Shown here piece by piece: positions 5,930-47,332 of a stretch of DNA of 64,000 nucleotides. Source of the DNA: Mermis nigrescens (Eukaryota; Nematoda; Enoplea; Mermithida; Mermithidae); contig JAVLUZ010000169.1 of NCBI GenBank assembly GCA_036768485.1, forward strand, positions 1,353,314 to 1,417,313. The letters run 5' to 3'. Position 1 is the first letter of the stretch. Each line of letters starts with the position of its first letter. Made by a program: the position numbers and the translations under genes. The notes beneath the pieces are model-generated. The model did not search any database. It saw only the letters and a list, made by a program, of their open reading frames with translations, and was not told the origin of the DNA.

Positions 5930-6133
5930 TAGGTGGGACAGCCTGCAAAATATAAAGTTTATACAAAGTTCTGTAGCTTACACCACGAAGAAGCAAAAGC
6001 AATCAAATCACGTCATCCACTTTCCTATTGAACCTTCCAGTCATGTTTAAAAAATCATCAAAAACTATTAAGGATTCGGACTTATTATGGAAAAACAGTT
6101 GGGACAGTCAGGTGGGACGCCCTGTATCATAAG

Positions 6134-8389
6134 TAGCGCGTTAGCGCGTACCTATAATATACTTGGGTACCTCTAACACCTGTGCACCCCCTACAGCTAT
6201 AACGGAACACTTCTGGAAGGTGCGGTTTTTTTTAAAAGAAAGATAATAAAAAATTTGCTGCATATGTTTTTTTGTTTTTCTTGAAACCCAAAACTGATTG
6301 TGTAAAGAAGGTGTAAAGTTTTTGTGTAACGTTATAACATGGGACAAATTTTGAGACATTTATAATGCGGCATGTGGACAACTGAGTATTGATGACTCGA
6401 AGAAATGAACAGCATAGGATAATAGAGGGATGAATTCTACAGATGGTACTTTTTTGTTTTTTGAAATTCGCATTAGTTATCGAATGGCAGTGTAAAGAGT
6501 GCGAAAATCAGGGGTGAAAAAGCACTTTTTTGGTCGAGTTTTCAACCTGCTTATGTCTGATACTAACTCCGGTTATGAGTTTTTTGAAATGTTTTCTGAC
6601 AGAAATGTAGAGCGGATCAAGGGCTAGATTCTGCATATAAGCAAAGTCTTCTACGCTCTATGGTGAGTTAGATCCTGGGGATTAAAGTTTACACTCTAGT
6701 GGATGGTGTAAAAAACTGATTTTAAGTAAGAGTTCTCTGCCAAATTTTTTTCGCTTATGAGTCAAACTGCATTTAAAAAACGCAATATTGAGTTATTCAT
6801 GGGGGTGTAAAGTTCGAAATCAGAGGTAAAAAATGGGCGAAAAAACACGTTTTTTCCGAATTTTGATTAATAAATCATACCAAATAATTTTTGCAAGAGA
6901 ATTTTGGCACACAGGAAAGTACTGCGATTTAAAAGCTACAAATTGTACCAAACCGAATTTCTTTAAACTCAATGGGGAGTTCGGTACGGAATTTTAAAGT
7001 TTACAGTGTTCTAAATGATGGAAAATACGTTTTTGTTGCGTTTTTTTTGTTCGCCACTTTCTCCGTCCAGAAGTCGGGATAAGTCCAATAGAATAAAAAT
7101 AAAGTGCTTTATATCGGGTGCATGTCAAAGCAAATTGTCGATACATTAATATTTAGCGGAGTGTAAAGTCAAAAATTTGGTGTTTAAAATGCGTTTCTGT
7201 CTTGTTTTTTCTGCCTGCTTCTCCGGTTATGAGTCAGGGACACGATTATCAAGTCTAGAAATGGATCAGGAACCAAATTTGATATGCCAGTCTGGCGCAT
7301 ATGTTTACACTCTACAGTGTTGTTAAGTGGTTTACACCTATTGTTAGTTTACCCATAAAACATTATGGGGACTTAATTTTCTACATAAATATTGATCGTA
7401 ATATCGGAACAATATCAAAATTACGAATCTGACCAAAATCTTCTTTACACTAGGTGTTTACATGAAGTTTACACTACATATGTATTTATCTTCGTTTTTG
7501 AGCATTCCAGAAACCTAATTTTTTTCATGGAGTCTAGAAATTTCCAAAGAATCAAATGTGAGACGTCACGTAGGCGCGTTTGTTTACATCTAACAGTGAT
7601 GTAAAGTAATAAAATCCCTCTTTACACTAGGCGGTTGTGTAAAGTTTACACTGCTAATTAATCTTCATTCTAGAGCTTTGCGAAAACCTAAATTTTTTAC
7701 CGAAATCTGAAAATTTACATGGAATCAAATAAGGGACGTCAGCTGGGCGCGTTTGTTTACACTCAACAGTTGTGTAAAGTGGTTTGCAAATGTGTCTATT
7801 TGTCATTAAAACCGTTATGGAGACATAATTTTTTCATGAATGTTGATCGTAATATCCGAGTAATATCGAATTGACAAATCCGACTAAAATCTTCTTTACA
7901 CTCGTTGCTAGTGTAAAGTTTACACTATATAATAAGCTTCATTCTAGAGCCTCACGGTAACTTATTCTTTCTCTAAAGTCGTAAAATATATATGGAAACA
8001 GATGTGATACGTCTGCTAGGGGCGCATGAAGAGTAGTGTAAAGTGATTAACAACTTATGTTAATTTGTTCTTAGAACATTATAGAGGTTTAATTTCTTAA
8101 TAAATGCTGATCGTTATATCAGAGCAATATCGAAATTATTAATCCCACTGAAATTCTTTACACTCTTGTGTAAAGTTTAAAATGTAAATTTAGTTGAGCT
8201 CTAGGTAGTTTTGGAAGCATATTTCTTTACAGGATGTTCTACGTAACATAAGAATTACTAATCAGAATGTTTGTTTCTTCTACAACTAATAGCTTTGTAA
8301 AGTTTAAACCATTCAATTATTAGAAGAACCGCATAGTAAATGAAATCTAGTATTGTATTTCCAAATCTTGCTAATTAAAAGTGGGGTAC
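6134..8389. repeat. Long repeat L, copy 1, rich in TTTACAC palindromes
   Basis: A 2.26-kb segment repeated in inverted orientation at 30271-32674. It begins TAGCGCGTTAGCGCG. Along its length GTGTAAA and TTTACAC recur dozens of times, often as near-palindromes such as GTGTAAAGTTTACAC. No transposase or other convincing protein. It directly abuts repeat R in both places, so L+R is probably a single mobile or duplicated unit of about 3.07 kb. Confidence 0.7.
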
Positions 8390-9206
8390 TAGCAAAGAAA
8401 AAATGCTCCGATGGAACAAAAAAGGGGAATATACTTGAGATTGTGAATTATCGAGGATGTAAAAGGAGGGGACTAGGAAAAAACTCCCTATGTTATATGC
8501 CAAGAATCGCAAAATATGTAAAAAATCAGACTTTCTCTAAACAATGCAAAAAATTGAAGTATATTCTGCGGCCTTTGAAAAATGTAAAACTTTAGTAAAC
8601 AATTGCTGTAGACATGTGTAAAAGAGTATCTACATAAGGTCTGTTGCACGCCAGCTTCCGTGTTTCCTACTGCTTTGAACCAACAATATCATCGATTGTC
8701 TTGAATGCATCGATATGTACTATTTCATTCAATTCGCTTAGCTACTGCATTGCTAATTCGCTGCTTTTTTCAATCAATTCTTTGGGAATTTGAATATTGC
8801 TTGCACTTTGACACTTAAAATGGCTGTATCTGCTAAGTGACATGCTTAGTAATAATGAAATACGAACAACTTAATTATGATTTGTTAACAGCATTTCACT
8901 TTCAGTCACGTTATTAAGCAACTCAAAGTTGAATGAAGTCTGCAAAAAGTTGCATTACGTAATAAGCTTTTAAGATATTATGTCAATCAGAAAAAATTAT
9001 TTTAAAATAATACGTTTTTTCAGAGACCGCAGAATATGCTTCGATTTTTTGCATTGTTTAGAGGAAGTCTGATTTTTTACATATTTTGCGATTCTTGGCA
9101 TATAACATAAAGAGATTTTTCCTAGTCCCCTCCTTTTACATCCTCGATAATTCACAATCCCAAGCATATTCCCTTTTTTGTTCCATCGGAGCATTTTTCT
9201 TTGCTA
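8390..9206. repeat. Repeat R, copy 1 (intact empty site)
   Basis: An 817-bp unit whose first and last ~200 bp are inverted repeats of each other (TAGCAAAG...CTTTGCTA ends). This copy is uninterrupted. The copy at 11045-30270 contains the same sequence split by Polinton 1 and by the Helitron array, so this copy gives the pre-insertion sequence for both. The small open frames in its arms (8353-8595, 8997-9194) are the same inverted-repeat sequence read twice and are not called as genes. Confidence 0.8.
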
Positions 9207-11505: not shown

Positions 11506-12016
11506 CTTCTTACCCTCCAGCGATGCCTAAGGCGTCTGCGTCCTGCCAATAACAGTTTCAATTTGTAGCGAAAAAATAAGGTGTGCACTGTCATTTCATA
11601 CTCTGTGTACAATTTAGTGTGTACGTCAGGTTATTTTGATTGCATCAGTCCTTACGCGTTTTTGAGATCGTTTCAGTTGCGCATCACTTCTGGCGCTTGT
11701 TATAACAATTGGGGATGTCCTGTGCTTTTCCTTTTTAAGCTAAATTAGGGTCCATTGTTGTAACGGACCTTACAAAAATTGACTTAAAATCCAAAATCAG
11801 GGTAGTACTAAGACATTTATTATAGTCCTATTATCTGTCCCCTACAACATAATTCTTATGGGTTAAAATGCGCTTGACCCGCCATCTTTTCGGTTGACCA
11901 CTGTCCACCTTTCTCTCTTGAAAAACATATCCATGCATCACATAGAGTGTTCTTAACGTTTAGCGTATAGTACGTTTGTTTGGAGGTCATATCTTGAATA
12001 AACATTAACCTCGTGC
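11506..12016. other. Sub-terminal region downstream of the TBP gene
   Basis: Non-coding apart from the TBP 3' fragment annotated at 11634-11715. No further gene, hairpin or ribozyme recognised. Confidence 0.4.
11634..11715 (-). pseudogene. Duplicated 3' fragment of the TBP gene
   Basis: The stretch containing TTTTGATTGCATCAGTC, CCTTACGCGTTTTTGAGATC and GCGCTTGTTATAACAATT closely parallels 12022-12105 inside the 3' end of the adjacent TBP gene (TTTTGAATGCATCAGTC, GTTACGCGTTTTTGAAATC, GCGCCTGTTATTACAATT). It corresponds to the C-terminal ~28 codons. It is a partial, decayed duplicate next to the intact gene. Confidence 0.65.
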
Positions 12017-12553
12017 TCAAAATATTTTGAATGCATCAGTCAAACACGTTACGCGTTTTTGAAATCGTTCCAGTTGGGCTTCATTTCTTGCGCCTGTTAT
12101 TACAATTTTTCCCGTCGTAAAAATAAGGGCAGAGGGTGGGCCATCCGGAAATCGTATTTTCAAACCGGGGAATAATTCTTGTTCGTATTCAACAAATTTT
12201 TTGTGCGCTTGAGCAAGAGCGCGTAAATTTATATTTGCGCCTAAATTTCCCGAACCCACAATATTGCGAATTTTGTGTTCAGTTAGTTTTAGCTCGTATC
12301 CACTTTTCTCCAACATTTCGCAAATTTTTATGTTCGCAATTTTATTTTGTTCAACGCTTTTAGCACCAATGCATACCAATTTTCCCGAACTGAACAATAG
12401 GCCCGTTGCTTTTGGTTCGCTTATTCGAATTATTGCCGCATTGAATCTTTTGTGGTCAAATTCCACTCCATCACAATTTCTCTTAATTTTATACAAATTT
12501 AAAAGCTTAGAAGAGACTCGAGCTGTAGAAACAACATTTCGAATCGTAACCAT
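12017..12553 (-). CDS. TATA-binding protein (TBP) core homologue encoded by the Polinton
   Basis: The 178-residue product is almost exactly the length of the TBP saddle core and shows both halves of its internal repeat. Half 1 contains IRNVVSTARV (4-13), RFNAAIIRISEPKATGLLF (36-54) and SSGKLVCIGAKS (55-66). Half 2 contains HKIRNIVGSGNLG (93-105), ELFPGLKIRF (126-135) and ALIFTTGKIVITGAR (142-156). The four phenylalanines that kink DNA in TBP are all present at F37, F54, F128 and F145. I chose the ATG at 12553, since upstream codons need a non-ATG start. A TATAAATA box lies 34-41 bp upstream, directly after the minor capsid stop. It is the last gene before the left terminus. Expected role: recognise TATA promoters, perhaps those of the element itself. 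A homologue sits at the same place in Polinton 2, so this is an element gene and not a chance host insertion. Confidence 0.9.
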   Translation of the reverse strand: MVTIRNVVSTARVSSKLLNLYKIKRNCDGVEFDHKRFNAAIIRISEPKATGLLFSSGKLVCIGAKSVEQNKIANIKICEMLEKSGYELKLTEHKIRNIVGSGNLGANINLRALAQAHKKFVEYEQELFPGLKIRFPDGPPSALIFTTGKIVITGARNEAQLERFQKRVTCLTDAFKIF

Positions 12554-12586
12554 GATTGAGAATGATAAATTTTTAATAGACACGGC

Positions 12587-12594
12587 TATTTATA
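12587..12594 (-). promoter_or_regulatory. TATA box of the TBP gene (TATAAATA)
   Basis: Located just 3' of the minor capsid stop codon and 34-41 bp before the TBP ATG, implying a 5' leader of only a few bases. Polinton 2 has TATAAATG at the matching place (46754-46761). Confidence 0.7.
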
Positions 12595-12595
12595 T

Positions 12596-13333
12596 CTAAA
12601 AATATGAAGGTTTAATTTTTCTAAAATGTAGCTTGACAATAACTTTTCCAGAAATAAACGGTATTAATAGATCCAAATCGTCTTTTATGTTTATTTCTAT
12701 GCTAGAAATATCTTTTACGAGGACGGGTATGTAGTGAGGAAAATCATAGATTCTGTCAATGATGTTAGGGTATGTTCCTTCCACGTTTATGATGCGCAAA
12801 AGAGGGGCTGAAACGTCTCCTACGATCTGGGGTTCTAAAATATTTGCATAGACGTACAAGGTTTCAAGACCACCCCCCACCAAGTCCGGCTCCTTATCCG
12901 ACCATCCTGTATCGTTTAGTAGTGTTTCTTTAAATCCTAAAATATGTGCTATTCTTTCGGACAGTTTCACTGATTTCACAAAGCGTTCGAGTATCATTAC
13001 AGAAACCCGTTTTATTGAAGTGTAATAATTGAATTCTACTCCTTCTACTTTTTCTATACAAAATTTCATAGCCTCTATAAATTCCTGGATGGAGTCGTAG
13101 CATCCTTCCTGCATTTGAAGTTTATATTCAATACCATCTGCATCTATAACTTTAATTTCCGTTTCGTGTTTTCTTATTGTTTGCCAATTATGGGGGTAAA
13201 TAAATTCCGAGAGACCACACTCCCAATCACCGATTAATTTTAATTTTTGCGGTAAATGTACAATAAACTTTGAAGGCGTATTTTGTCTATCGCTTATCGT
13301 GTTGCTAGGCAAAGTTATGTAAAATTGATCCAT
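12596..13333 (-). CDS. Minor capsid (penton-type, single jelly-roll) protein
   Basis: An intact frame of about 245 residues starts at the ATG at 13333 (MDQFYITLPSN). The opening FYITLPSN...NTPSKFIVHLP...GDWECGLSEFIYP is characteristic of the conserved Polinton/adintovirus minor capsid family, which forms the vertex capsomers. Expected to act in virion assembly with the major capsid protein. The start overlaps the end of the protease reading frame, as expected in a compact late cluster. The TBP TATA box begins immediately after its stop. A decayed homologue is at 46018-46752. Identification is by overall family resemblance and gene order, not a structural model. Confidence 0.75.
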   Translation of the reverse strand: MDQFYITLPSNTISDRQNTPSKFIVHLPQKLKLIGDWECGLSEFIYPHNWQTIRKHETEIKVIDADGIEYKLQMQEGCYDSIQEFIEAMKFCIEKVEGVEFNYYTSIKRVSVMILERFVKSVKLSERIAHILGFKETLLNDTGWSDKEPDLVGGGLETLYVYANILEPQIVGDVSAPLLRIINVEGTYPNIIDRIYDFPHYIPVLVKDISSIEINIKDDLDLLIPFISGKVIVKLHFRKIKPSYF

Positions 13334-13823
13334 TTTTGACAAATTTGGTTTATGATAAAATCTTCATCTATGACTGAGGTGTTTATCTTAAATAGACTAT
13401 TTACAAAACCCGTTACAAATTCATCAGCATAACTTTTTTCTAAACTTTTTAAAATTAGTTTCATGGGCACCCCCTGTACCTCCAAATTAAAAAATAAACA
13501 CACATTTGGCCGCACGTAGACGTTAGTGGCTGCTGCACGCATTTTTTATTATGCTTAATTTTTGTAGCATACTGTAGAATATAATTTTGTGTATGATTAT
13601 CAGGCGCTAAGCCGTAGCTGTCGAAATAGTCGCACGAGTCATGCACGTCAAAATACATGCACGTCCAATGCGAACCAGGTTGGGTACTAGGGTCCATATT
13701 CATTACCAATGCAGCAGGTTTGCTAAAAATGGGTGGTAATTTATCGCTTGGGAAAACACCAAGAAAATTTTGACCGACCGCTTGGTCGCCTTTTAATACA
13801 CTATTTAGTTGAAAGGTATTCAT
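13315..13823 (-). pseudogene. Adenain-like cysteine protease, one frame break
   Basis: Maturation protease of the C5/Ulp1-like fold that trims capsid precursors in Polintons and adenoviruses. The N-terminal frame (13461-13823) carries the catalytic elements in the usual order: His in GSHW, an acidic residue in YFDSYG, and the nucleophile in STCGQMC. The C-terminal third continues in another frame (13315-13542, GVPMKLILKSLEKSYADEF). The shift lies at the five-C run 13470-13474. It sits between the capsid genes. If the run length is a sequencing error the gene is intact, otherwise it is truncated after the active-site Cys. Length and context fit the family. Confidence 0.8.
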
Positions 13824-13825
13824 TT

Positions 13826-15126
13826 TTAAGCGTTATAATCATACATAACATTCCGGTTCTTATCTAGCATTACTAAATTATCAAACTCGGCATAAACAAT
13901 CACTTCAAGGCCCGTATCGGGAATTTTTTCGGCAAATGATATTTCAATGCTAGTTGTACCTTCCCTAATTAAATCCCAATGTCCGCCGTCATCTTCGTCT
14001 GGAGTCAAATCAAATGCAAACAGACACTGACCATTTTTGAACCCTTCTCTTGTCACACCGTTCCCTTTATTGTCCCGACTAATATCAAGTGTTTCGAATA
14101 ATTGATCAAAAGCTCTAAGGTACTTGTTATTTTTAAAGTCTAGCCTGAATGGGTGGGAGGGAAAGGTAACGCCCCCACAAATTACTTTTGCATCGTTTAT
14201 ACTGTATGATTTAAAATTGAAAGGAGATTTTTTTATATTTCCCCTATACGCATCTGCATCCACACATCCAAAAATAATGCGTCTAGGAAGCTGCCCTGAG
14301 AATAATGTGTTAAGGGGAGTAGATTGACAAGTGCTAGGTATATGTATATTCATCATTGTAACTCTGCGCACGGGGTATTTAATAGTGTTTGATGCAAGTA
14401 CTCTTTCGATAGCTAGTCCAGTGCTTTCTAAAATTTCTGCCTTTCGTACGCAAAACTTCATTTGTTGAATACTTAAATGCGCATTTTCGGCACCCTTAAA
14501 ACTTTGCAAAACAAACGCGTCAGGATTTCTGTTTAATTCAAGCCTGACGTCAGTATAATTTAGTAAAAACCTGTCTTGTAAAAATAAATCAATGTGTAGT
14601 GGCGCGCTTAATTCAACTATAGTCTTATCTGCAAAAAATGCTATGCGTTTTCTCAATCCATAATTGTCTTCTGTGTCGTTATAACCCGGACTATCTACGA
14701 TGTACAAAGCAGATTGCAAGTGCGAATTTTTAGCATCCCACCCATAATTCAGTTCAGTCTCTAAAAATGCTCTGTATGCATATTTATCTCCGCTGTCATG
14801 TACGAGCTTATTATTTAAAAAAGTTTCACTTGACGAAATAGAGTTTTGGCGATCAGATTTATAGGGCCTACATCAGGCGCTGTGCCATCAGCCTGAGGCG
14901 TTCCTTTAGATATAGAAATTTGCATGTAAATATAATTTTTGTTTAGCTGTAAGAAATGAGGATCTGGAGGAATATGAAATTCGTATGGGCCCTCATCAGT
15001 AACAGGGTTGGTCAGATTTATCTCATCCCAATACCCTCGTTTTATGGCTACCTGGGTAGGCGGTACAGTGAAAAAATCAAGTTCGCTTTTTGTACTAGCG
15101 ACTGAGAATGAATCGATTAAAGACAT
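13826..15126 (-). pseudogene. Major capsid protein (F54H12.2-type), one frame break
   Basis: An N-terminal block (14815-15126, starting MSLIDSFSVASTKSELDFF) and a large C-terminal block (13826-14719, starting QSALYIVDSPGYND) resemble the widespread family annotated in animal genomes as F54H12.2-like, assigned as the hexon-type double jelly-roll capsid protein of Polintons and adintoviruses. Motifs such as LFSGQLPRRIIFGCVDADA and FDLTPDEDDGGHWDL are in the distal block. The upstream frame runs into TAA right after a T6 run (plus strand A6, 14817-14822), and homology continues in the -1 frame. Polinton 2 has the identical T6 and stop. This may be an inherited mutation, a systematic homopolymer error or programmed slippage. 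Confidence 0.78.
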
Positions 15127-15548
15127 TATTTCTTTTTACTTCGTTTTTGAGTTGAAAATACGTCAACACGAAGTTCTTTTATAGGCTTGGGTCGGGTGCC
15201 CAAACCTCGCCCCGTTTGCCGTTGTAATTTGTCACTAGCTTGTTTTAGCAAATTAGCTGCGCCTTCTTTTCCGTGTGCTTGCATTGATTGAACAATATTA
15301 CGGCCGTCGAGTACATCTGCGGCAATATGTGCACCCGTAGACAGAGCTTGTTTTCCCACACTAGATGCTGCTGATTTAAAAATAGGTATAGCCATCCGAA
15401 AAAGTGAACGGAAAAAGCTACCAAGTCCAGCCCCTCTTTGGTACGGCATTCCCTTGAACCCTACCATACCGTATCCGACCTGGGAAGCCTGGTCGGTATA
15501 GTAGTCTAACCAAGCGTTAAAATTATCTGGATTGAATTGTTGTCTCAT
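15126..15548 (-). CDS. Small basic virion protein with Gly-rich membrane-active-like segment
   Basis: 140 residues from the ATG at 15548. It contains YGMVGFKGMPYQRGAGLGSF followed by an amphipathic FFRSLFRMAIPIFKSA stretch (about 47-62) and a Lys/Arg-rich tail ending KRSKKK. Similar short proteins lie next to the major capsid gene in other Polintons and resemble adenovirus pVI/core proteins in size and composition, so a role in virion core or membrane disruption is inferred, not shown. Its stop overlaps the major capsid start. Decayed homologue at 43807-44218. Confidence 0.65.
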   Translation of the reverse strand: MRQQFNPDNFNAWLDYYTDQASQVGYGMVGFKGMPYQRGAGLGSFFRSLFRMAIPIFKSAASSVGKQALSTGAHIAADVLDGRNIVQSMQAHGKEGAANLLKQASDKLQRQTGRGLGTRPKPIKELRVDVFSTQKRSKKK

Positions 15549-15594
15549 TTTTTGTAAAATTCTTTTTAGTGTTTAATTATGCTTTAAATTTCTT

Positions 15595-16278
15595 TTATAG
15601 ATTTATCCAGTATTTCAGTGGCTTTTTCTCTTCTGACGCTGGCGTAGAAAATGACTGAGATGGCGATGCATAAACTTGGTTTTGCAATAAATTCAATCGA
15701 GTTTTATTTACAATAGATTCTTTTGGAATATTTTCATCGATTAATTTTTGGAGAAAAATTTCAGCACCGATAGGTGGTTCAGATTTTCGAATACGTGAAA
15801 AATCGGAAACTAAATCAACAATGTTCGATCCCGCAATTTTATTACCATCAATAATCATTTCTCCTTTGTCTGCCCATTTTATGTGTGGGCTTTTCCGAGC
15901 ATATTTAAGTAATAGTGAAGCTTGTTTCTGCCATTTTCGGGGTACTGTGCTAAATACTGCTTCTTCTACAACATCTGTCTTTATAGGTTCCATAGGTTCT
16001 TTCATTTCTTGCTTGGCTGTATGCAAAAATTTAGCGTCTGCTGCTCTCTCTTCCTTAATTTCGAGCTGTAACGGTTTTTCAAGATCCTGCTTAGCTGTTT
16101 GATACCTACGCAAAATTTGATTATATTGTAAAATTTTAGCGTCCATAGGTAACGAATTATCGTTTAAAATATTCATCATTTCACGATCTAGATTTGACAC
16201 GTACCTAGAAGTGCTTTCATTTTCTCCCCGAGCAAGCTCGTGGGGGACTAGAATCATTTTGTTTGTATGAATCATCAT
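15595..16278 (-). CDS. Conserved Polinton protein of unknown function (227 aa)
   Basis: Intact frame starting MMIHTNKMILVPHELAR. The N-terminal part (LDREMMNILNDNSLPMDAKI, then QYNQILRRYQ) is the recognisable conserved block of a protein found in the late cluster of many Polintons. The middle is charged and helical. A second block, FSTVPRKWQKQASLLLKY followed by IDGNKIAGSNIVDLVSDFS, lies near 110-160. No enzyme motif or TM segment. The start overlaps the stop of the preceding small gene (ATGATGA), suggesting coupled translation. Probably virion-associated from context only. Homologue at 43079-43759. Confidence 0.7.
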   Translation of the reverse strand: MMIHTNKMILVPHELARGENESTSRYVSNLDREMMNILNDNSLPMDAKILQYNQILRRYQTAKQDLEKPLQLEIKEERAADAKFLHTAKQEMKEPMEPIKTDVVEEAVFSTVPRKWQKQASLLLKYARKSPHIKWADKGEMIIDGNKIAGSNIVDLVSDFSRIRKSEPPIGAEIFLQKLIDENIPKESIVNKTRLNLLQNQVYASPSQSFSTPASEEKKPLKYWINL

Positions 16279-16616
16279 TTAATAATTGCATCTGCTAAAA
16301 GCTGCCCTGCTATTCCTAATATAGGCGCAAGTAAGGCAGGAAGGAAACCACCCTTTTGTACCAATATGTCCTTTTTCTTTTTTATTGATATATTTGAAGC
16401 AGATAGGTTGCGCAGCTGTGTCTTAAATTTACTCAATTTTTCGAACTCGATCGGTTTTAAAGGGACATTACCATTTAGTACGTTGAGTATGCATTCGCAT
16501 AAGCATAAAATTAGGTCATTTTCTGCATTTTCTAATATTGCCTTACGTTGTTTAGGTTTTGCCTTAGACAACACGTCGATGTAGCTAATGTGTTTCTGTA
16601 AACGTTTTGGAGCCAT
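16275..16616 (-). CDS. Small Lys-rich protein with hydrophobic C-terminus, late cluster
   Basis: 113 residues. A basic N-terminal half (PKRLQKHI, KAKPKQRKAILENAENDLILC) is followed by a Lys stretch SIKKKKDILVQKGG and a hydrophobic tail FLPALLAPILGIAGQLLADA (about 90-110). The KKKxxLxQ-GGFLPALLAPIL signature recurs in Polinton/adintovirus small virion proteins, often compared with adenovirus pX. DNA condensation or membrane interaction is plausible but inferred. A TATAAAAG box lies 32-39 bp before the ATG. Homologue at 42724-43082. Confidence 0.68.
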   Translation of the reverse strand: MAPKRLQKHISYIDVLSKAKPKQRKAILENAENDLILCLCECILNVLNGNVPLKPIEFEKLSKFKTQLRNLSASNISIKKKKDILVQKGGFLPALLAPILGIAGQLLADAIIK

Positions 16617-16647
16617 TTTTTATTTTGACCTAAAATATGTTTAGGTT

Positions 16648-16655
16648 CTTTTATA
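16648..16655 (-). promoter_or_regulatory. TATA box (TATAAAAG) of the small virion gene
   Basis: 32-39 bp upstream of the ATG at 16616, nearly the same spacing as at the TBP gene. It overlaps the 3' end of the ATPase gene. Confidence 0.6.
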
Positions 16656-17268
16656 CCTTTTCGGTGTAAACAACTGGGTTTTTTGAGAAAATTTTAGCGC
16701 GGAGACGTAAATTTTCAGGTGTAGATTGTGTCAAGTCGACCAAAAGGAAAGAAAACGCTTCTTTTGTAGCATCATTAAAGGCTTCCAGAAAAAACTTAGG
16801 ATTATGAGGGTAAAGCTGACGGGCTAGTGTTTGTACCTGGAGCCGATCAGACGGATTCTTCATTAAAACTAAATATTCAGTGTTTATGCGACATGTTCTT
16901 AAACCTTTAAAAAATATGTTTTGAACGATATTTATTACAGAAATATCCCAATGATGACAACCGCGTGTAAATAATAAATCATTTTTTGCTTCTTGCATAA
17001 GATCATCTATTATAATTAATTGTGGTTCACTGCTATGTTGCCTAACTAGACTTAAATCAGGGGGACCTTTCATGAAAATTACGCTAGTTTCCATCTCTTT
17101 ATGTAAACTTTGATCTTCTGCGAAAAACCACCATATAAATTTCGGAGGTGGATGAATAAAATTATTTGCATTTTTTACAAGCTGTTTTACAAAAGTTGAT
17201 TTTCCAGCCTTTGTGGGGCCGGCTACAATACAAGTAAAGGGGTGTTTAAATCGGAGATCCATTTTCAT
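16651..17268 (-). CDS. FtsK/HerA-type genome-packaging ATPase
   Basis: Intact 205-residue frame. Walker A is GPTKAGKST (17-25) after the strand FTCIVA. Walker B is LIIIDD (84-89). Downstream VINIVQNIFFKG and INTEYLVLMKNP match the sensor region of the A32-like packaging ATPases of Polintons, adintoviruses and virophages. Size is normal for this group. It would pump element DNA into capsids. Two ATGs, 17268 and 17262, are possible. A TATATTAG box lies just upstream, itself abutting ribozyme B. The copy in Polinton 2 has lost both Walker A glycines. Confidence 0.88.
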   Translation of the reverse strand: MKMDLRFKHPFTCIVAGPTKAGKSTFVKQLVKNANNFIHPPPKFIWWFFAEDQSLHKEMETSVIFMKGPPDLSLVRQHSSEPQLIIIDDLMQEAKNDLLFTRGCHHWDISVINIVQNIFFKGLRTCRINTEYLVLMKNPSDRLQVQTLARQLYPHNPKFFLEAFNDATKEAFSFLLVDLTQSTPENLRLRAKIFSKNPVVYTEKV

Positions 17269-17291
17269 TACGTGTATGAATTGTGCTTTTT

Positions 17292-17299
17292 CTAATATA
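17292..17299 (-). promoter_or_regulatory. TATA-like box (TATATTAG) of the ATPase gene
   Basis: 24-31 bp before the ATPase ATG and 3 bp from the 3' end of the HDV-like ribozyme. The same ribozyme-to-box spacing occurs in Polinton 2 (42037-42044). Confidence 0.5.
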
Positions 17300-17302
17300 G
17301 AT

Positions 17303-17374
17303 GAAGCTCTCTCTGCCAGCTGCTTATGCAGCTGCCCAGCCTGCGGGACGAGGACCCGGAGCTTCAGCGCAGGC
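17303..17374 (-). ncRNA. HDV-like self-cleaving ribozyme B
   Basis: Read 5' to 3' on the minus strand, the segments fit the nested double-pseudoknot order of HDV ribozymes: P1 GCCUGC, P2 GAAGCU, P3 GGG, L3 UCCUCGU, P3' CCC, P1' GCAGGC, junction UGGG, P4 CAGCUGC-AUAA-GCAGCUG, J4/2 GCAGAGAG, P2' AGCUUC. All stems are perfect. L3 and the junction match HDV, and J4/2 has the C-N-R-A pattern with the expected catalytic C. Predicted cleavage is just 5' of P1, near 17374-17375. It lies in the gap between the unknown gene (stop at 17435) and the ATPase, preceded by an A-rich tract and followed at once by the ATPase TATA box. Fold inferred by hand, activity not shown. Confidence 0.87.
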
Positions 17375-17425
17375 CGAAAAATTTTTTTTTGTTCTTTTTT
17401 GTTTTATTATTTTTTTCAGGCGAAC
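17375..17425 (-). other. A-rich tract upstream of ribozyme B
   Basis: On the coding strand this 3'-UTR stretch is almost only A with A7, A6 and A9 runs and a few T/C/G, including an AATAAA. It ends ~8 nt before the predicted ribozyme cleavage point, so cleavage would leave an mRNA with a template-encoded A-rich end. The hexamer also allows ordinary polyadenylation. Confidence 0.6.
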
Positions 17426-17434
17426 GTACATTTT

Positions 17435-17820
17435 TCACAAATTTAGGTTTTCTATATTGCTCATGATACGCTCAATTTGCGTATCAACAGTATTTTCAGT
17501 TGACAGTGTCCAAACAACGCGACGTTCTGGCCGAATATGTTGCCACATTTCGACAAAGAAAGATGTTTCGAAACGGGCCATTTGCCGCTCTAAGGCAATA
17601 GCAAAATGCCAGAAGCCGCGCCGTTTGTTTTTTCCTGTCAACTCACGCTGCGTGTTGTATTGCGCAGCAGCCGCTTTCCACTGATCCTTGTAGGCATCAG
17701 AGAAGCGGTTCCAAAAATACGTAGCGACCCGAGCAAGTTGGTAATCATTGTATGGAAATTGAGAAAAATCCGAGCCAGCTCGGAACGAAAGGTAACAAAG
17801 ATTTGCTGACCAGAAGACAT
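17435..17820 (-). pseudogene. Conserved Polinton protein of unknown function, one frame break
   Basis: Begins MSSGQQIFVTFRSELARIF at the ATG 17820 and ends ...RIMSNIENLNL at 17435. About 128 residues if the frame is followed, with aromatic and Arg-rich segments (GFWHFAIALERQMARFETS; VEMWQHIRPERRVVW) and no motif known to me. The frame breaks at the A5 run 17764-17768, where the Polinton 2 copy has one more base and reads on. A divergent homologue is present in both arms of element 3 (48839-49164, 51995-52358), so the gene is widely kept. It has its own TATA box and conserved leader. Confidence 0.65.
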
Positions 17821-17879
17821 TTTCGACCGCACAGTAAGTGAAAATTTTTAAGAATGATGCTTTTTTAAATTTTCAATCC

Positions 17880-17887: not shown

Positions 17888-17897
17888 GACTCCAGCT

Positions 17898-18215
17898 CTA
17901 TTCCGATGCTATTTTTAGCAAGCTTTCTTCCCGTCGTGAAGCCATATTTTTTCTTTCTTCCAAGTGTCTCTCAAGAACTGCGATCCCAGCCTCTTGTCTC
18001 GCCTTATTGTATTCCAAACATTTTGGACACATTGGTATCGAAAAAAATAAGTTACCCGAATCTGTTCTAAAACAGTCTCGTTCTTCGCAAATTTTTTGGC
18101 AAAAATAACAAAGTTCGATCGTTAGCGCATACATTGGCCGAGGCAAGTTGCGGGAGCACAACTGAATTGGAGCTTTAATCTTCTTTGAACGTAATTCAGG
18201 AGCAGAAGAGTCCAT
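17898..18215 (-). CDS. Small Cys-finger protein, unknown function
   Basis: 105 residues, intact. A basic N-terminus is followed by CYFCQKICEERDCF and, about 20 residues on, MCPKCLEYNKARQ: two CxxC pairs that could bind one zinc ion. The C-terminus is a charged helix. Homologues: decayed copy in Polinton 2 (41116-41434) and a divergent one in element 3 (49812-50021: CYFCQ...CPKCCDFNRAMQEAG), where spacing and the two CxxC pairs are kept. It could be a regulatory or nucleic-acid-binding protein; no closer assignment is possible. Confidence 0.72.
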   Translation of the reverse strand: MDSSAPELRSKKIKAPIQLCSRNLPRPMYALTIELCYFCQKICEERDCFRTDSGNLFFSIPMCPKCLEYNKARQEAGIAVLERHLEERKNMASRREESLLKIASE

Positions 18216-18275: not shown

Positions 18276-18283
18276 CTTTTATA
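18276..18283 (-). promoter_or_regulatory. TATA box (TATAAAAG) with conserved leader
   Basis: 61-68 bp before the ATG at 18215. Followed by GGGATTGAAAATTT...ATCATC...TGTGCGGTCGAAAA-ATG, a near copy of the leader at 17820-17887. Confidence 0.7.
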
Positions 18284-18412: not shown

Positions 18413-19437
18413 TCATAATTTGATTAGTTGACTAACCCAACTATTAAATTTTTCAGGAAAACCGCGCCATTTAACTAAATATTCCGTTTTTCTTCCTTTT
18501 TTGCGAGTGTTTAAAACTTTTTCTACTACGTAAACTTCATCGATAATGTTAACTTTTTGTAGTTCTGGCTCATAGAATACGCCTTCTAATTTCTCACCCA
18601 TCTGATCCTTTAGTGTGTAAACGGGGGATTGCGTTTAAGTTTTTTATCTATTACGAACGTTTCTTCACTCCAGTTAGGCTCGTAACCCTTTTCAAAAGTT
18701 CTCTTAACCTTACTTATGCGAACTTTATCTCCTACATTAAATTTAAAAATTACGTTTTTATTGTCAATTTTGAATACTTTTCGTAAAATTTGAGACTCGT
18801 TGTTAATATTAACGTTGGCCGGTTCGATGCCTATTGTACGATGTTTTGTATTATTGTAACCTTCAATCAGATCATCCAAAATATTAATGTACCTATATGT
18901 GTTATGTTTCGTAAAATAGCGCCACATGCGTTCTTTCAAAGTGCGGTTAAAACGCTCGACTACGCATGCCTTGAGCTCACTGTTTGTTGTGAAGAAATCA
19001 ATATCATTTTCTTTCAAAAAGGCTTGAAATTGTTTATTTAAAAATTCTGTGCCTGCGTCACTCTGCACCTTTTCTGGTTTTCGACCTTTATCCAAAATGA
19101 GTTTGAAAGCATTGAGAATCGATGCCGCGCTCTTATTTTTTACGGGTATACTCCATGCATACTTGCTAAACACGTCTATACAGTTTAAGAGAAAAACATA
19201 ACCGTCATTATGCTTTCTCAGTGATTGCAAGTCTACTAAATCTATAGCCCATTGCTCATCTATCCTGGAAACTATAACTTTATTGCGCACATATTTTCTT
19301 CTCGCCGGTTTATGTAAAGTGTAGGTTGGTTGGGTTTCAAGCCAATTTATCACCTCCTTTTTAGGTAGTTTTGTATGTGTTTTCAGAGGCTCGACCCCCG
19401 TATACCCTGTTTGAGGATCGTAATAATTTTTTTCCAT
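18413..19437 (-). pseudogene. Retroviral-type integrase with C-terminal chromodomain, one frame break
   Basis: Inserts the element, generating the 6-bp duplications. The catalytic core (18610-19437) shows D66 in EQWAIDLVD, D127 in VQSDAGTEF and E161 in VVERFNRTLKERM, the DDE triad of Polinton integrases (YFDV..S-type core LLNCIDVFSKYAWS at 83-96). A C-terminal SH3-like part (FNVGDKVRISKV) follows. A chromodomain with EVYVVEKVLNTR and YLVKWRGFPEKFNSW lies in another frame at 18413-18601. The shift is at the five-G (C on the coding strand) run 18623-18627. The chromodomain probably guides target choice through histone marks. The decayed Polinton 2 keeps only the chromodomain. Confidence 0.88.
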
Positions 19438-20493: not shown

Positions 20494-23400
20494 CTAATAG
20501 CCATAGGGCACGGTAGAATAATCAGGCTGTACAATACGCTTATTATATACAATTTTGTACTTTTTAGACGCATTTCCGGTCACTATCGTATGATCAGGCA
20601 GACGGCGAATCTGAGGAAAATATACAGTTTTTTCTACGATATTATTTTGCTGTACAAACATTTTGACCATTTTTAATAACGAGTGGAAATTAATTTTTGT
20701 GGCAGTCACTGACGATAATGTGAACCCGCGCACTTTTATATGGTAATAATATTTATTGTCTTTTGCTGAACGTACTTTATATGCATAATTTTTTGGGCCG
20801 CCACTTACGAATTCTTCAATGTAGCTGCCTTCGCCATATTCTTTTAATTCGTTAGTCATATTTCCTAAATATGACCCTATAGGCACCTGATACTCGCATT
20901 TCCCCAATGTGCTTTTAAAAATAACACTGTCTGTGTCAAAATATAATACACGTTCGCCTAGCTTTTCCAAATGCTCATACAATCTGAGTCGCGCTTGTGA
21001 TGTTGTATAAGCCGCGAGCACGGGATTTGTATTCCCCATCACCTCTGCAAATTCGTCCTCCTTTGCATGCGTGACGGCCATTAAATTTTCGTTAATTGCG
21101 TTAATTGAGTATATTACATTTGAAGCGTCAAAAATTAAATCAAAATATGGGGCTGGATCGGTGAAAAAGGACACTTTTGACATGTTATTCCGCTGCCCAA
21201 ACTTTCCCCAGAACGAATTTAACATTAACTTTGCGAGAGCGCGCATACCGCCGTTTTTCGTAATTTTTGTTGCGTCAAGCTCGATTCCTTCGTTGTCTTT
21301 GTACTCTTGAACGTATCTTTCCTTATCTTCATCGGATTTTACCCATGTAGGCCATCCGTCCGATTCCTGTTTTAATTTCATAAATTTATTTATGTACGAC
21401 GTAAAAAGGCCACCATTTGGGTTGTTTATTTTATCATATTGCTCTGTTTTTTCGTAGTGCCAAATTTCAAATATTTCCATTATTTTGTACCCCAGTTCTA
21501 GCGCTTTGTACACTTCGAGCGTCACCCATGCACCCACTATTGCACGTTCTTCATCACTGTGTTCGCATTTTGTTGTTTGATGCGTTTCAGTGCACATTCT
21601 GCACAACGGAAAATATAATTTTTCGCCAAATCTATAGGGCAGTAGTGGGTGGTACAAATTCCTGGGTGGGAGAATTTTCGCTTTAATTAAGCCTTGATAT
21701 GGCCTACTGTTCACTGTCATTTCCGAAAAATTTTCCGTAAAAATTTGCGGGTGGCCGATAGGGTACAAGCCGTATTTATTTACGGTCGGGTATAGGCTGC
21801 ATATATCCGTGTACCTTATGTGCTCTAACGGTTCGCCATTTTCATTGCGTTTTATTTTTTCATACAGCTTTATTGCATTCGTCCGTCCCCCATAAAACGC
21901 TTCTCTGGGGTCAAGTGGGTCAACAATCTTTATCGAATCAAAAAATTGTTTCATGTCTTTATTTGCTTTTAATTGCTGACGCAATTCACACTCCCAGAGT
22001 TCTATTACAGCGTAACCCATTGTTTCAATTGCTTTACGCCGTCTTACAGTATTTTGAAACGCTTCTTCCGCCGATGTTATTTGATCTGCCGTCATTTGCG
22101 TTCTTTTTTCATGCATTTCGGGCACCCGTGCCAAAAGCATCCATTGAACTCATATACTGTATTACCTTAGATTCCGTCCACGCGATAATTGCCCACTTTT
22201 TGTTCACCCATATTGCGTGCATGCCTGATGTTGATTTTATAAGTTTCGCTCAACCATTTAAGCCATTTTATCGCTGTTATCGAATGCTTTTCCATTCGCC
22301 TATACCCTCCGTGCGGTACTATGCCTATTGTTTTTGGTTTTAGATAAGTTGACCGAAAAACTTTATTGCACGCGCTCGCTATGGTTAACGAGCACTCAAA
22401 CGGATCCATTCCGGTTTCCGCTAAAAATAGATTGCGAAATTTTATACAGCATCGCCTCAAAATGTCAACGTCAGACTCGCAGTAAGCAAAAAGTTCCGAC
22501 TTGAAATTAAAAATTTTGCCCTTTTGTTCAGCGTACCATTTTTGAAATATTTCTTTGTTTTTCTGACTCATTGTAGCCGGAGAATAGTACCAAGCATCCG
22601 GCCATTCACCCACATAATTTTCGTTAGCCTTTGTATTGAATAGATGTGGGAAAAAACCCTTTCTCAATTCGGGTTCGTCGAATGTTTTAGGTAGAGCAGC
22701 TAGGGCCATGGGCAGAAAATTGAATGAATCGATTAATTTTACTGACCCAGCACTCAGGCTCATGATTTCCAAGCCTTTAGTGATAATGGTGGGCGCAACG
22801 GCTTGCTTGAAAAGATATTTCAAAATAAAATGTTCGTCGAAACCTTTAGCGTTATGGGCGATTGCTATAGTATTTTCAAGACCAAAAAGGAAATCGCAAA
22901 ATGCATCTGTACAATTTTCGCCATAAAATATGCGCCGATTCTCACCGCATTTATCGCATTGTCCTAGCGGTTTTGCCATGCAATCTGTACAAACAATATG
23001 CGCTATACACAAATTGGGTTCATGCTCCAGCCTTGAATTTCCGCAGGTCTTTTTCTTGTCTCGTTTCAAAGTCAAAAAACACGTATTTAGTCTTTTTCTT
23101 TTTCATCTTTTCCTTCGGAAACGACTTGCATATAACATTTATGATCAACCGTAGGCGCATCAGATTTACACGTTTTACAATAAAAATGACCACATTTATG
23201 TTTCCGTATTTTATCTATTCTATTTACATGCCGACCGCAATTTTTACAGAGCATCTTTTGGCTTACAAATTGACTGCTGGTTTTTTCCGACTTTTTTTAT
23301 GATTTTCAAAGCACCTTTGTCCTCTAAATAGGCGATTACAATCACTACATTCAGTGAGAACCACGTTTGGGCATACAGGACCGTAACAACACGGACACAC

Positions 23401-24494: not shown

Positions 24495-24502
24495 CTTTTA
24501 TA
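24495..24502 (-). promoter_or_regulatory. TATA box (TATAAAAG) of polB
   Basis: About 91-98 bp before the ATG at 24404, the only clear box between the right terminal repeat and polB. Confidence 0.62.
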
Positions 24503-29370: not shown

Positions 29371-30270
29371 ACAAAAGACAGTTTTAAAAATTTTAAAAAT
29401 ACAACATGTTTTTACCAACAATTTTTTAGAAATATCGCAAAAACAATACAAGTCCCGAAAAATAATAAAAAATACAAGAGACATCTTAATCTCATACAGC
29501 TATCAGGCCTAAAATCAGCCAGGGCAACGCCGGGCAGCTCAGCTAGATATAAAAAATATAAAAACCGCTGGCCGATCCATTGCAGAGTCATTCAATTTTT
29601 TATACTAATTACTGGTTAAGATATTATTTGTTCATTAAACACTCTAGCAGATGGGGCAGCGAAGCGCCCCATTTGCTAGTAATTATCTTTAAAGCATATT
29701 ACGTAATGCAACTTTTTGCAGACTTCATTCAACTTTGAGTTGCTTAATAATGTGACTGAAAGTGAAATGCTGTTAACAAATCATAATTAAGTTGTTCGTA
29801 TTTCATTATTACTAAGCATGTCACTTAGCAGATACAGCCACTTTAAGTGTCAAAGTGCAAGCAATATTCAAATTCCCAAAAAAATTGATTGAAAAAAGCA
29901 GCGAATTAGCAATGCAGTAGCTAAGCGAATTGAATGAAATAGTACATATCGATGCATTCAAGACAATCGATGATATTGTTGGTTCAAAGCAGTAGGAAAC
30001 ATGGAAGCTGACGTGCGAACAGACCTTATGTAGATACTCTTTTACACATGTCTACAGCAATTGTTTACTAAACTTTTACATTTTTCAAAGGCCGCAGAAT
30101 ATACTTCAATTTTTTGCATTGTTTAGAGAAAGTCTGATTTTTTACATATTTTGCGATTCTTGGCATATAACATAGGGAGTTTTTTCCTAGTCCCCTCCTT
30201 TTACATCCTCGATAATTCACAATCCTAAGTATATTCCCTTTTTGTTCCATCGGAGCATTTTTCTTTGCTA

Positions 30271-32674
30271 GTACCCCACTTCTAATTAGCAAGATTTGGA
30301 AATACAATACTAGATTTCATTTACTGTGCGGTTCTTCTAATAATCGAATGGTTTAAAATTTACAAAGCTACTAGTTGTAGAAGAAACAAACATTCTGATT
30401 AGTAATTCTTATGTTACGTAGAACATCCTGTAAAGAAATATGCTTCCAAGACTTTCTAGAGCTCAACTTAATTTACATTTTAAACTTTACACAAGAGTGT
30501 AAAGAATTTTAGTGGGATTAATAATTTCGATATTGCTCTGATATAACGATCAGCATTTATTAAGAAATGAAACCTCTATAATGTTCGAAGAACAAATTAA
30601 CATTAGGTGTTAATCACTTTACACTACTCTTCATGCGCCCCTAGCAGACGTATCACATCTGTTTCCATATATATTTTACGACTTTAGAGAAAAAATAAGT
30701 TACCGTGAGGCTCTAGAATGAAGCTTATTATATAGTGTAAGCTTTACACTAGCAACGAGTGTAAAGAAGATTTTAGTCGGATTTGTAAATTCGTTATTAC
30801 TCGGATATTACGATCAACATTCATGAAAAAATTACGTCTCCATAACGGTTTAATGACAAATAGACACAGATGTAAACCACTTTACATCAATGTTGAGTGT
30901 AAACAAACGCGCCCAGCTGACGTCCCTTATTTGATTCCAGGTAAATTTTCAGATATCAGCAAAAATTCAGGTTTTCGCAAAGCTCTAGAACGAAGATTAA
31001 TTAGCAGTGTAAACTTTACACAACCGCCTAGTGTAAAGAGGATTTTATTCCGATTTGTAAATCTGATATTACTCGGATATTATTATCAACATTTATGAAA
31101 AAAATTGCATGTCTACAATGGTCTGAGGACAACTAAACAATGAGTGTTAACTACTTTACATCACTGTTGGATGTAAACACACGCGCCTACGTGACGTTTC
31201 ACATTTGATTCTTTGAAAATTTCTAGACTCCAGGAAAAAATTAGGTTTCTGGCTTGCTCAAAAACGAAGATAAATACATATGTAGTGTAAACTTCATGAA
31301 AACACCCAGTGTAAAGAAGATTTTGGTCAGATTCGTAATTTTGATATTGTTCCGATATTACGATTAATATTTATGAAAAAAATTAAGTCTCCATAATGTT
31401 CTATGGGCAAACTAACAATAGGTGTAAACCACTTTACAACACTGTAGAGTGTAAACATATGCGCCAGACTGGCATATCAAATTTGGTTCCTGGTCCATTT
31501 CTAGACTTGATAATCGTGTCCCTGACTCATTACCGGAGAAGCAGAAAAAAAACAAGACAGAAACGCATTTTAAACACCAAATTTTTGACTTTACACTCGC
31601 TAAATATTAATGTATAGACAATTTGCTTTGACATGCACCCGATATAAAGCACTTTATTTTTATTCTATTGGACTTATCCCGACTTCTGGACGGAGACAGT
31701 GGCGAACAAAAAACGCAACAAAAACGTATTTTCCATCATTTAGAACACTGTAAACTTTAAAATTCCGTACCGAACTCCCCATTTGGTTTAAAGAAATTCG
31801 GTTTGGTACAATTTGTAGATTTTAAATCGTAGTACATTCCTGTGTGCCAAAATTCTCTTGCAAAAATTATTTGGTATGATTTATTAATCAAAATTCGGAA
31901 AAAACGTGTTTTTTCGCCTATTTTTTACCTCTGATTTCGAACTTTACACCCCATAAATAACTCAATATTGCGTTTTTTAAATGCACTTTGCTGCGATGTG
32001 TAGCCCATGAGAGGCACTTTATTAATGTTGTCTTCAATTTACACTGACTCATAAGCGGAAAAATTTGGCAGAGAAATCTTACTTAAAATCCGTTTTTTAC
32101 ACCATCCACCAGAGTGTAAACTTTAAACCCCAGGATCTAACTTACCATAGAGCGTAGAAGACTTTGCTTATATGCAGAATGTAGCCCTTGATCCGCTCTA
32201 CATTTCTGTCAAAAAACATTTTAAAAAACTCATAACCGGAGTTAGTATCAGACATAAGCAGGTTGAAAACTCGACCAAAAAGTGCTTTTTCACTCCCAGA
32301 TTTTCGTACTCTTTACACTGCCATTCGAGAACTAATGCAAGTTTCAAAAAACAAAAAAAGTACCATCTGTAAAATTCATCCCTCTATTATCCTATGTGTT
32401 CAATTCTTCGAATCATCAATACTCAGTTGTCCACATGCCGCATTATAAATGTCTCAAAATTTGTCCTATGTTATAACGTTACACAAAAACTTTACACCTT
32501 CTTTACACAGTCAGTTTTGAGTGTCAAGAAAAACAAAACACACGGGCAGCGAATTTTTTTATTATCTTTCTTTTAAAAAAATCGCACCTTCTAGAAGTGT
32601 CCCGTTATAGCTGTAGGGGGGTGCACAGGTGTTAGGGGTACCCAATTATATCATAGGTACGCGCTAACGCGCTA
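30271..32674. repeat. Long repeat L, copy 2 (inverted)
   Basis: Reverse complement of 6134-8389, ending in GGTACGCGCTAACGCGCTA. Small indels separate the copies. TTTACAC/GTGTAAA motifs are again dense. No coding sequence supported. Confidence 0.72.
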
Positions 32675-33658
32675 CCTATGATATGGTAAAAGTGATATCC
32701 TACCCAGGTATGAGTAATCAACTTATAGGGAGAAGTATGCCATAACCTATATGTAGCCGCGCTACTGCACCGAAATTTCAAAACACTTTGTTAGCCCGAT
32801 TCTGGCGGATAAATTCAAATGAAAATCGTAAAGTTAAAATGAGGCAGCTACATATATCGTTTCCGAATTTGACCATATGTTTCCGTTTTACTCGTCGTTT
32901 TCGTGTCCGGATTTTACTTTCCACAGAATACACAAGAGCAAGATTTAAACTGACTGCAATCACATTTTCTAATCAGCTGAAGTTTTATCTCGATCAGTCT
33001 TTGGAAGCTCGTTGTTGTTCCTATATATTCCAGGGAAACTTGTCGCATATTGTTTAAGAAGAATGGTATGTAGATATTGTCATTCTTCGAACTTGCTTTG
33101 GTAATTGCATCTGAATTGTGTATGGTTCTGCTCTACAGCTTTGCAAAACAAGATAAAACCTGCAATTCCGTAAAATGGTGAAATTTTTTAGAATTGTAAT
33201 AGAAACCTAGAGAACAAATGTAAAAGGAACTGAATTTTATGAAATTTGTTCCATATGCTCGTAAGCGAGAGGTGTTTTTCAATCTTTCTCAGTACTTATC
33301 TACGTACCTGCAATCTTTTAAAAATTTCTACGGAAACTTCTGATCATGGAACTCTGAAAGGCTTAAAAAATTATGTAAGTGTGTGATAAAAATGTCAACG
33401 TTAAAAGTTTTCACTAATTGTTGAATATTACCTGCACCCAGAGTTGTTTGTTAGACATAAAGCAAAGCAAAGTGTTCGACTCTCAGGGAGCCTTCCTCTC
33501 CATACAAGTATGTACAGCTTTCTTTTTATCGGCCCGAGTAATATAGAGATATGATCGGCTATGATCCAAAAAAGTTCGAAGGAGTTTAAATAAGTTTTCA
33601 ATGTCTTCGACTAGAGATGGAGTCAAACCCAGACATGCAGGTTGAAGGGGGTTGGGGG
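32675..33658. other. Unrecognised spacer
   Basis: Mostly featureless. Bases ~32750-32850 are weakly similar to 10760-10865 (CCGCnnnACTGCA, CGGATAAA.TTCAA, AAAGTTAAA), perhaps an old duplication flanking the L/R repeats. The last 8 bases are the M1 duplication GTTGGGGG. Confidence 0.4.
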
Positions 33659-46795: not shown

Positions 46796-47332
46796 ATGGT
46801 GACAATTCGAAATGTTGTTTCTACAGCTCGAGTCTCTTCAAAGCTTTTAAATTTGTATAAAATTAAGAGAACTTGTGATGGTGTGGAATTTGATCATAAG
46901 AAGTTAAACGCTGCGGTAATTCGAATAACAGAGCCAAAATGTACAGGCCTGTTGTTTAGTAGCGGCAAACTAGTTTGAATCGGTGCTAAAGGCATTGAAC
47001 AAAACTAAATTGCGAACAAAGAAATTTGTGAAATGTCAAAGCAAAGCGGATATGATCTAAAACTGACTGAACATAAAATTTACAATATAGTTGAATCAGA
47101 AAATTTAGGTTCGATGATTAATTTACGGAATTTAGCTCAAAATTACAAAAGATTTTTTGAATACGGACAAAAATTATTTCCTGCTTTAAAACTATACTTC
47201 CCTTATTGTCAGCCCTCAGCCCTTATTTTCACAACAGGCAAAATTGTTATTACGGGAGCTAGGAGTGAGGCGCAAATTAAACGATTTGAGGAACACATAG
47301 TGTGTTTTATTGATGCGTTCAAAATAAAATGA
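46796..47332 (+). pseudogene. TBP core homologue (Polinton 2)
   Basis: Matches the Polinton 1 TBP over its full length: VTIRNVVSTARVSSKLLNLY, then TGLLFSSGKLV, LFPALKLYF and ALIFTTGKIVITGARSE. Two in-frame stops (near 46976 and 47007) separate two long open parts. Three of the four DNA-kinking Phe are kept; the first is Leu (HKKLNAA). Retention in the same terminal position shows TBP belongs to this Polinton lineage. Confidence 0.87.

Follow-up and report, generated by a model that had tools for sequence, protein, structure and literature searches.

The TATA-binding protein (TBP) is a core, highly conserved factor for which animals carry few genes, and viral TBPs are already known. TBPs are encoded in 59% of mirusvirus genomes (PMC10132985; see also PMC12768974). 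In carrying a TBP gene, which is common among them, these eukaryotic dsDNA viruses resemble the Polintons of this study, although they are far larger and belong to another capsid lineage. TBP genes are also mentioned for Cymbomonas elements of putative mirusvirus origin (PMC10675990), a TBP is reported for the giant alga virus CpV-BQ1 (PMC12085832), and a protein of African swine fever virus is placed among the viral TBPs (PMC5825884). Like the Polinton protein, the TBPs of giant viruses and poxviruses have kept the DNA-kinking phenylalanines and lost the surface used by host regulators (PMC7221094, PMC12085832). Almost all TBP-bearing viruses, however, also encode a TFIIB-like gene, and the first TFIIB-contact glutamate (C.L3.2) is about 40% conserved (PMC7221094), whereas the Polintons show the opposite of giant viruses and poxviruses, with no TFIIB gene found and both glutamates kept. 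The nimavirus protein wsv303 (PMC10871703) is, as in the Polinton, a TBP in an integrating animal dsDNA virus, though from a large virus family. KSHV ORF24 (PMC13345323) has a TBP-like domain and resembles the role proposed below in steering host Pol II to promoters of the virus, where the TATA motif is altered to TATTWAA; it differs in being large, with several domains, in belonging to a set of six viral activators and in contacting Pol II itself, whereas the Polinton TBP is a bare core with the TFIIB-contact residues.

A sequence-only reading of the window, the 64,000-nucleotide stretch of Mermis nigrescens DNA analysed here, knew of no earlier case of a Polinton-borne TBP, and none was found among the open-licence PMC matches listed (titles and starts of abstracts). 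We are likewise aware of no TBP-carrying Polinton in the literature, and to our knowledge little has been established about how Polintons are expressed.

The TBP gene lies in a 26-kb transposon, Polinton 1, delimited by inverted repeats of 91-96% identity (Table 1). The element shares with Polintons/Mavericks the genes for PolB, integrase, protease and capsid, an ATPase candidate with a weak match, and the terminal inverted repeats; by eye, no 6-bp target site duplication was seen at the outer ends of these repeats. Its genes run leftwards from 24404 to 12017 and TBP is the last of them, in agreement with the earlier description of a terminal Polinton gene. This copy is not intact, since PolB and the capsid gene are each split over frames. 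The capsid gene itself has no Pfam match; its 297-aa piece has 492 homologues at up to 79% identity, a few of the listed ones carrying a precomputed PF21738 assignment, and we take it to be a capsid gene from that family and from the make-up of the element. The top eukaryote-named match of the capsid query is from Romanomermis culicivorax, with 67% identity over 68% of the query. The 245-aa gene adjoining TBP is likewise without a Pfam match, and its homologues adjoin capsid genes at other loci.

Table 1. Coordinates of Polinton 1 features, and of the Polinton 2 TBP gene, in the window.
Feature	Position	Strand	Remarks
Terminal inverted repeat, left, Polinton 1	6125..8977	+	pairs with 29684-32683
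Relic of a second TBP 3' end	11632..11710	-	downstream of the intact TBP gene
TBP-core gene, Polinton 1	12017..12553	-	178 aa
TATAAATA box	12587..12594	-	41 nt before the TBP start codon; Polinton 2 counterpart TATAAATG at 46754
245-aa gene adjoining TBP	12596..13333	-	minor capsid/penton candidate, by position only
PRO, adenovirus-type maturation protease	13461..13823	-	Peptidase_C5 E=1.9e-6
Major capsid protein (MCP) gene	13826..15126	-	two frames: 13826-14719 and 14815-15126
TATAAAAG box before capsid gene	15176..15183	-	kept in Polinton 2 at 44169
TATAAAAG box before 140-aa gene	15592..15599	-	kept in Polinton 2 at 43755
TATAAAAG box before 113-aa gene	16648..16655	-	
Packaging ATPase candidate	16651..17268	-	Adeno_IVa2 and Pox_A32, E 0.001-0.002, below cut-off
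zf105, 105-aa Cys-rich gene	17898..18215	-	neighbour of TBP in other families
TATAAAAG box before zf105	18276..18283	-	
Integrase	18610..19437	-	rve E=4.9e-12
PolB	20494..23075	-	frames 20494-22140 and 22167-23075; DNA_pol_B_2 E=1.8e-21, 1.5e-21
TATAAAAG box before 24404 frame	24495..24502	-	just outside 12001-24500
Terminal inverted repeat, right, Polinton 1	29684..32683	-	pairs with 6125-8977
TBP gene, Polinton 2	46796..47332	+	length as in Polinton 1; two in-frame stops

Elsewhere in the window, an inverted repeat pair at 49637-51526 with short frames resembling, by eye, zf105 and the start of integrase looks like the remnants of a third Polinton. At 54627-60515 there is a Gypsy-like retrotransposon whose long frames encode gag (808 aa) and pol (1028 aa). 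Two copies of a 1.75-kb repeat, 99% identical to each other (1776-3522 and 38437-40183), with an inverted end copy at 40183-40733, perhaps represent a palindromic-ended mobile element.

That this last gene encodes a TBP core, as proposed from the letters, is borne out by profile, sequence and predicted fold: the protein matches PF00352 in two stretches with 144 bits (cut-off 22.9), its predicted structure has the saddle fold, and all four of the claimed DNA-kinking phenylalanines are in place (F37, F54, F128 and F145). Two PF00352 stretches were likewise obtained for 10 of 10 other Polinton TBPs scanned, and the protein is predicted to bind TATA DNA. Among viral collections, the window TBP gave no match in PHROGs and no pattern match in IMG/VR, where the window MCP had 81 pattern matches with no relative among them and the alignments of Polinton TBPs and MCP gave no confirmed match. 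Of seven IMG/VR loci retrieved with a cellular-TBP alignment, the two examined proved to be large viruses and not Polintons: both have a ribonucleotide reductase gene, accompanied in L003 by patatin and YqaJ and in L006 by topoisomerase II.

The gene is highly repeated in its own genome (524 Mb, 860 contigs, including the window). All of the best 150 of 2552 first-look PF00352 candidates scored above the cut-off, with matches counted per lobe, a single gene being able to count twice. With the Polinton 1 TBP as query, the best 150 of 1918 candidates ranged from 100% down to 46% identity, and 89 of these places were stop-free in the matched stretch while 61 had stops (hand count; some partial); with the L044 TBP as query, the best 150 of 2136 all had at least 72% identity and 139 were stop-free (hand count), and the two lists shared no place when compared by eye, contig by contig. 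These counts are lower bounds, since only the best 150 were scored per search. Some TBP frames, at L025 and in the L044-type search, are open over 235-297 aa and so exceed the core; N- or C-terminal extensions, or just open flanks, may account for this. The two best PF00352 matches, 2.7 kb apart on contig C73, evidently represent exons of the TBP gene of the host. Five Polinton 1 TBP copies, including that of the window, are 100% identical (C68, C77, C161, C194), each with a Polinton 2-type copy at a distance of 34.8 kb. The window locus as a whole therefore recurs on several contigs, either as haplotigs or through recent segmental duplication, and copy counts of the window family are inflated by this recurrence. 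The window itself sits at the extreme end of contig C77.

To characterise the surroundings of these genes, 20 TBP places were picked, non-randomly, across PF00352 score classes, and 10 kb around each was searched by tblastn with the Polinton 1 proteins. At least one of PolB, integrase, MCP, PRO and ATPase was detected at 16 of the 20 loci; L038 and L039 had zf105 only, plus part of the 245-aa gene in L039, and at L047 and L051 TBP alone was detected with these queries. We distinguish four types, named here. In the window-like type I (L042/L043) a terminal TBP adjoins the 245-aa gene; in type II (L044-46, L052-54, L056) TBP stands between integrase and ATPase on the opposite strand; and in types III and IV (L010-type and L026-type loci) it adjoins zf105. 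The position of TBP thus differs between Polinton families, which lay beyond the reach of the sequence-only reading.

Polinton 2 (40733-47326), a broken, partial and inverted copy of Polinton 1 at 90.6% identity, allowed the history of the gene to be followed within the window. The two TBP genes are both 537 bp long and differ by no indel, with 78% DNA identity against 94% for the adjacent gene. Codons 1-25 show little divergence (dS 0.18), whereas codons 31-179 have dS 1.28 and dN 0.185, with a dN/dS of 0.145 (bootstrap 0.069-0.265) despite the stops in Polinton 2. As dS is 0.10-0.46 in nine adjacent frames, most of the TBP gene was probably exchanged between Polinton lineages long separated under purifying selection. 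The downstream relic, which blastn aligns with TBP CDS positions 447-531 (81% over 85 columns, E=9.6e-20), is consistent with replacement of TBP at this end of Polinton 1 and is likely a trace of such an event. Ten further TBP pairs were tried. Five diverged pairs (dS 0.33-1.21) gave dN/dS values of 0.133, 0.145, 0.15, 0.185 and 0.252, with bootstrap intervals all below 0.5; four were saturated at synonymous sites; and the closest pair, L010/L029 (dS 0.06), gave 0.56 with an interval of 0.23-1.60 that includes 1. These ratios indicate that the diversified Polinton TBPs are kept by purifying selection.

In a tree of 49 rows (IQ-TREE, C20), the 18 Polinton TBPs stand together on one side of a branch with support 86/92, a union of two clades that is uncertain in view of the long branches. 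Clade A comprises the window TBP, L042 and L058-60 (100/99) and clade B the remaining 13 rows (100/98); the window TBP is 30-37% identical to clade-B families. The closest companions of the host TBP in the tree are those of the nematode Aphelenchoides and the protist Anaeramoeba (97/87), and six IMG/VR viral TBPs, from large-virus contigs, form their own clade (100/100). Capture from the element's own host is not supported by the topology, in which Polinton TBPs are not nested with the host TBP, but the AU test does not reject a grouping of the host TBP with all Polinton TBPs (p=0.058) or with clade A (p=0.167); its grouping with clade B is rejected (p=0.002). The Polinton TBPs would thus be one or two old captures. 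In a metagenomic search (8000 candidates scored, 4488 matches, 120 listed), five proteins on contigs of 906-2138 bp (P0245, P0247, P0280, P0337 and P0352) had 47-61% identity to Polinton TBPs, against which they scored higher than against 58 cellular TBPs; the other 177 of 182 listed matches compared did not. Other hosts or samples therefore probably have the Polinton TBP lineage.

The surfaces of the protein were compared in an alignment of 38 distinct stop-free Polinton TBPs (the window's excluded), 120 cellular-type sequences and seven IMG/VR viral rows that include one identical pair. Close L010-type copies make up 14 of the 38, and residue counts over the 38 are therefore not independent. 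F37, F54 and F128 are invariant (38/38 each), and position 145 is Phe in 24 and Tyr in 14, the latter being the L010-type copies. Among the other DNA contacts, for which we assume the yeast numbering, T124-type residues are changed in 32/38 and N159-type residues in 14/38, with Leu or Met in place of this second-lobe Asn. The T124- and N159-type changes mean that the DNA preference could depart from the classic TATA box, and an altered preference is possible for the Tyr-145 and Asn-changed proteins, which were noted among L010-type and type II/IV TBPs.

The two glutamates named as TFIIB contacts in human TBP, E284 and E286 (PMC7221094), which we placed on the TBP alignment, correspond to E124 and E126 of the window TBP. 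They are kept in 36/38 and 37/38 of the other Polinton TBPs and in 120/120 of the cellular set, as against 3/7 and 1/7 of the viral rows (Asp in 5/7). The charged N-lobe surface that serves TFIIA, TAF1, Mot1, NC2 and Brf1 in a general-factor TBP is, by contrast, largely altered in the Polinton proteins; the TFIIA positions are presumed. R239h is Glu in 24, Asp in 3 and Arg in 1 of 38 (cellular: Arg 73 and Tyr 42 of 120), R205h is Arg in 0/38 with 8 gaps (cellular: Arg 104/120), and E191h is Lys in 28/38 and Glu in 2/38 (cellular: Glu 120/120), while at R235h a basic residue, Arg or Lys, persists in 22/38 (cellular: 117/120). At this surface the window TBP keeps E31 and has S45, I75 and E79. 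In human TBP, R235E and R239S abolish basal transcription (PMC7221094), so a TBP with Glu or Asp at R239h might depend on a different partner, or might not function in a standard PIC. TFIIB was absent among the 16 Polinton 1 frames scanned. Across the genome, scoring of all 10 PF00382 candidates left three matches, two of which read through stops; they fit exons of the host TFIIB, as expected; no TFIIB homologue associated with Polintons was found by this profile, which a highly divergent TFIIB could escape.

The claim that TATA boxes precede the element's genes holds for half of them: TATAWAW occurs within 120 nt upstream of 6/12 Polinton 1 genes, a result reached in 0 of 20000 circular shifts. 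The motif is missing within 160 nt upstream of PRO, g227, the 245-aa gene, integrase, ATPase and zf139 of Polinton 1, and within 120 nt upstream of TBP at all seven loci of types III and IV that were examined. In 12001-24500, the gene strand has five occurrences of TATAAAAG, of which that at 20740 falls within PolB, and the opposite strand has none, against a mean of 0.75 and a maximum of 4 in 300 dinucleotide shuffles. Exact boxes were counted 15-110 nt before ATG, with PolB frames excluded. TATAAAAG precedes 4/11 genes in Polinton 1 and 3/7 in L042, with TATAAATA at 1 and 0 genes, respectively; TATAAATA precedes 7/10 genes in each of L044 and L046, 6/10 in L052 and 5/9 in L056, all four with 0 for TATAAAAG. 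For each element's main variant, 0/2000 shifts reach the observed gene count. Because L044 closely matches L046, and L052 closely matches L056, the four type II elements amount to two subfamilies. The split between Polinton 1 plus L042 and L044 plus L052 (7:1 vs 0:13, Fisher p=6.9e-5) involves genes that are not independent within an element and represents a single contrast, clade A vs clade B. The homologous genes g113, g140, capsid and zf105 have TATAAAAG(A/G) in Polinton 1 and CTATAAATACT-like boxes in type II, and types III and IV have CTATAAATA before zf105. Exceptions are the integrase box of L040 (TATAAAAG) and the TBP boxes of Polinton 1 (TATAAATA) and L042 (TATATAAG); L041 and L057 carry both variants, with counts of 3 vs 5 and 3 vs 11 in 10 kb. 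A pairing of box variant with TBP clade is suggested by these data.

We consider it reasonably likely that the Polinton TBP is a working part of the element, predicted to bind TATA boxes, to recruit host TFIIB and Pol II and to escape from regulators. The core would bind and bend the TATA boxes that lie about 30-100 nt before many element genes, and the bound protein would then bring host TFIIB and RNA polymerase II; with the N-lobe surface for TFIIA, TAF1, Mot1/BTAF1, NC2 and Brf1 largely changed, element genes would start outside the control and eviction that act on host TBP. DNA binding, TFIIB recruitment, expression, regulator escape and a benefit to the Polinton are what we infer from the sequences, together with the selective recruitment of host polymerase to the element. 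The changed surface, needed for normal PIC control, would also suit a decoy or dominant-negative protein that occupies TATA boxes and silences host or competitor transcription, and families with different TBPs share one genome and could compete. Such a role is unlikely: a pure blocker has no need of TFIIB-contact glutamates kept in 36/38 and 37/38 proteins, the boxes precede the Polinton's own genes, and a host-harming gene is hard to square with many tolerated copies unless it is silent. TBP bends DNA, the N-lobe transcription-factor surface is changed, and the gene, as the last of Polinton 1, lies about 3 kb from an inverted repeat, all of which would suit an architectural, non-transcriptional factor in replication, integration or packaging. 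We hold this to be quite unlikely, given the retained TFIIB glutamates, the position of TBP next to integrase, ATPase or zf105 in types II, III and IV, and the boxes before genes, 5 vs 0 in favour of the gene strand in Polinton 1 (one of the 5 inside PolB). A functionless host cDNA that hitch-hikes with the Polinton would agree with an intronless gene and with many broken copies (61 of the best 150 Polinton 1-type places scored, and Polinton 2), yet it is largely refuted and very improbable. Six diverged pairs have dN/dS of 0.13-0.25, the genes of Polintons 1 and 2 differ by no indel at dS 1.28, the window TBP is 30-37% identical to clade-B families, the host TBP is distinct and groups with cellular TBPs of a nematode and Anaeramoeba, and closer relatives occur in five other sequence records. 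A one-off host cDNA, which the sequence-only reading had itself set as the case against its proposal, is contradicted by the many copies spread over several Polinton families, by the purifying selection seen when copies are compared and by the separate host TBP gene, and was rejected on copy number, families, dN/dS and tree position.

Beyond a working TBP, it is possible, though we would not call it probable, that each family has a private promoter system, in which its own TBP has co-diverged with its own box, host TFIIB and Pol II are shared and regulators are escaped; the association of TATAAAAG with clade A and of TATAAATA(C) with clade B is suggestive of such pairs. The boxes might instead be served by the host TBP, the split between TATAAAAG and TATAAATA being phylogenetic drift unrelated to TBP clade. 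This we find somewhat unlikely: the split is a single phylogenetic contrast, clade A vs clade B, and the L040 integrase and Polinton 1 TBP boxes are exceptions to it, but one variant recurs across the different genes of a family while the other stands at the homologous genes (7:1 vs 0:13).

If private TBP-box systems exist, parallel and partly orthogonal TBP-promoter pairs would have arisen inside mobile elements. More generally, even small virus-like elements that integrate can encode a start-site factor of their own, here diversified and in very many copies. These genes provide natural TBP/TATA sets of graded divergence under selection, with the TFIIB contact kept and the regulator contact changed, and they make the expression of Polintons testable.
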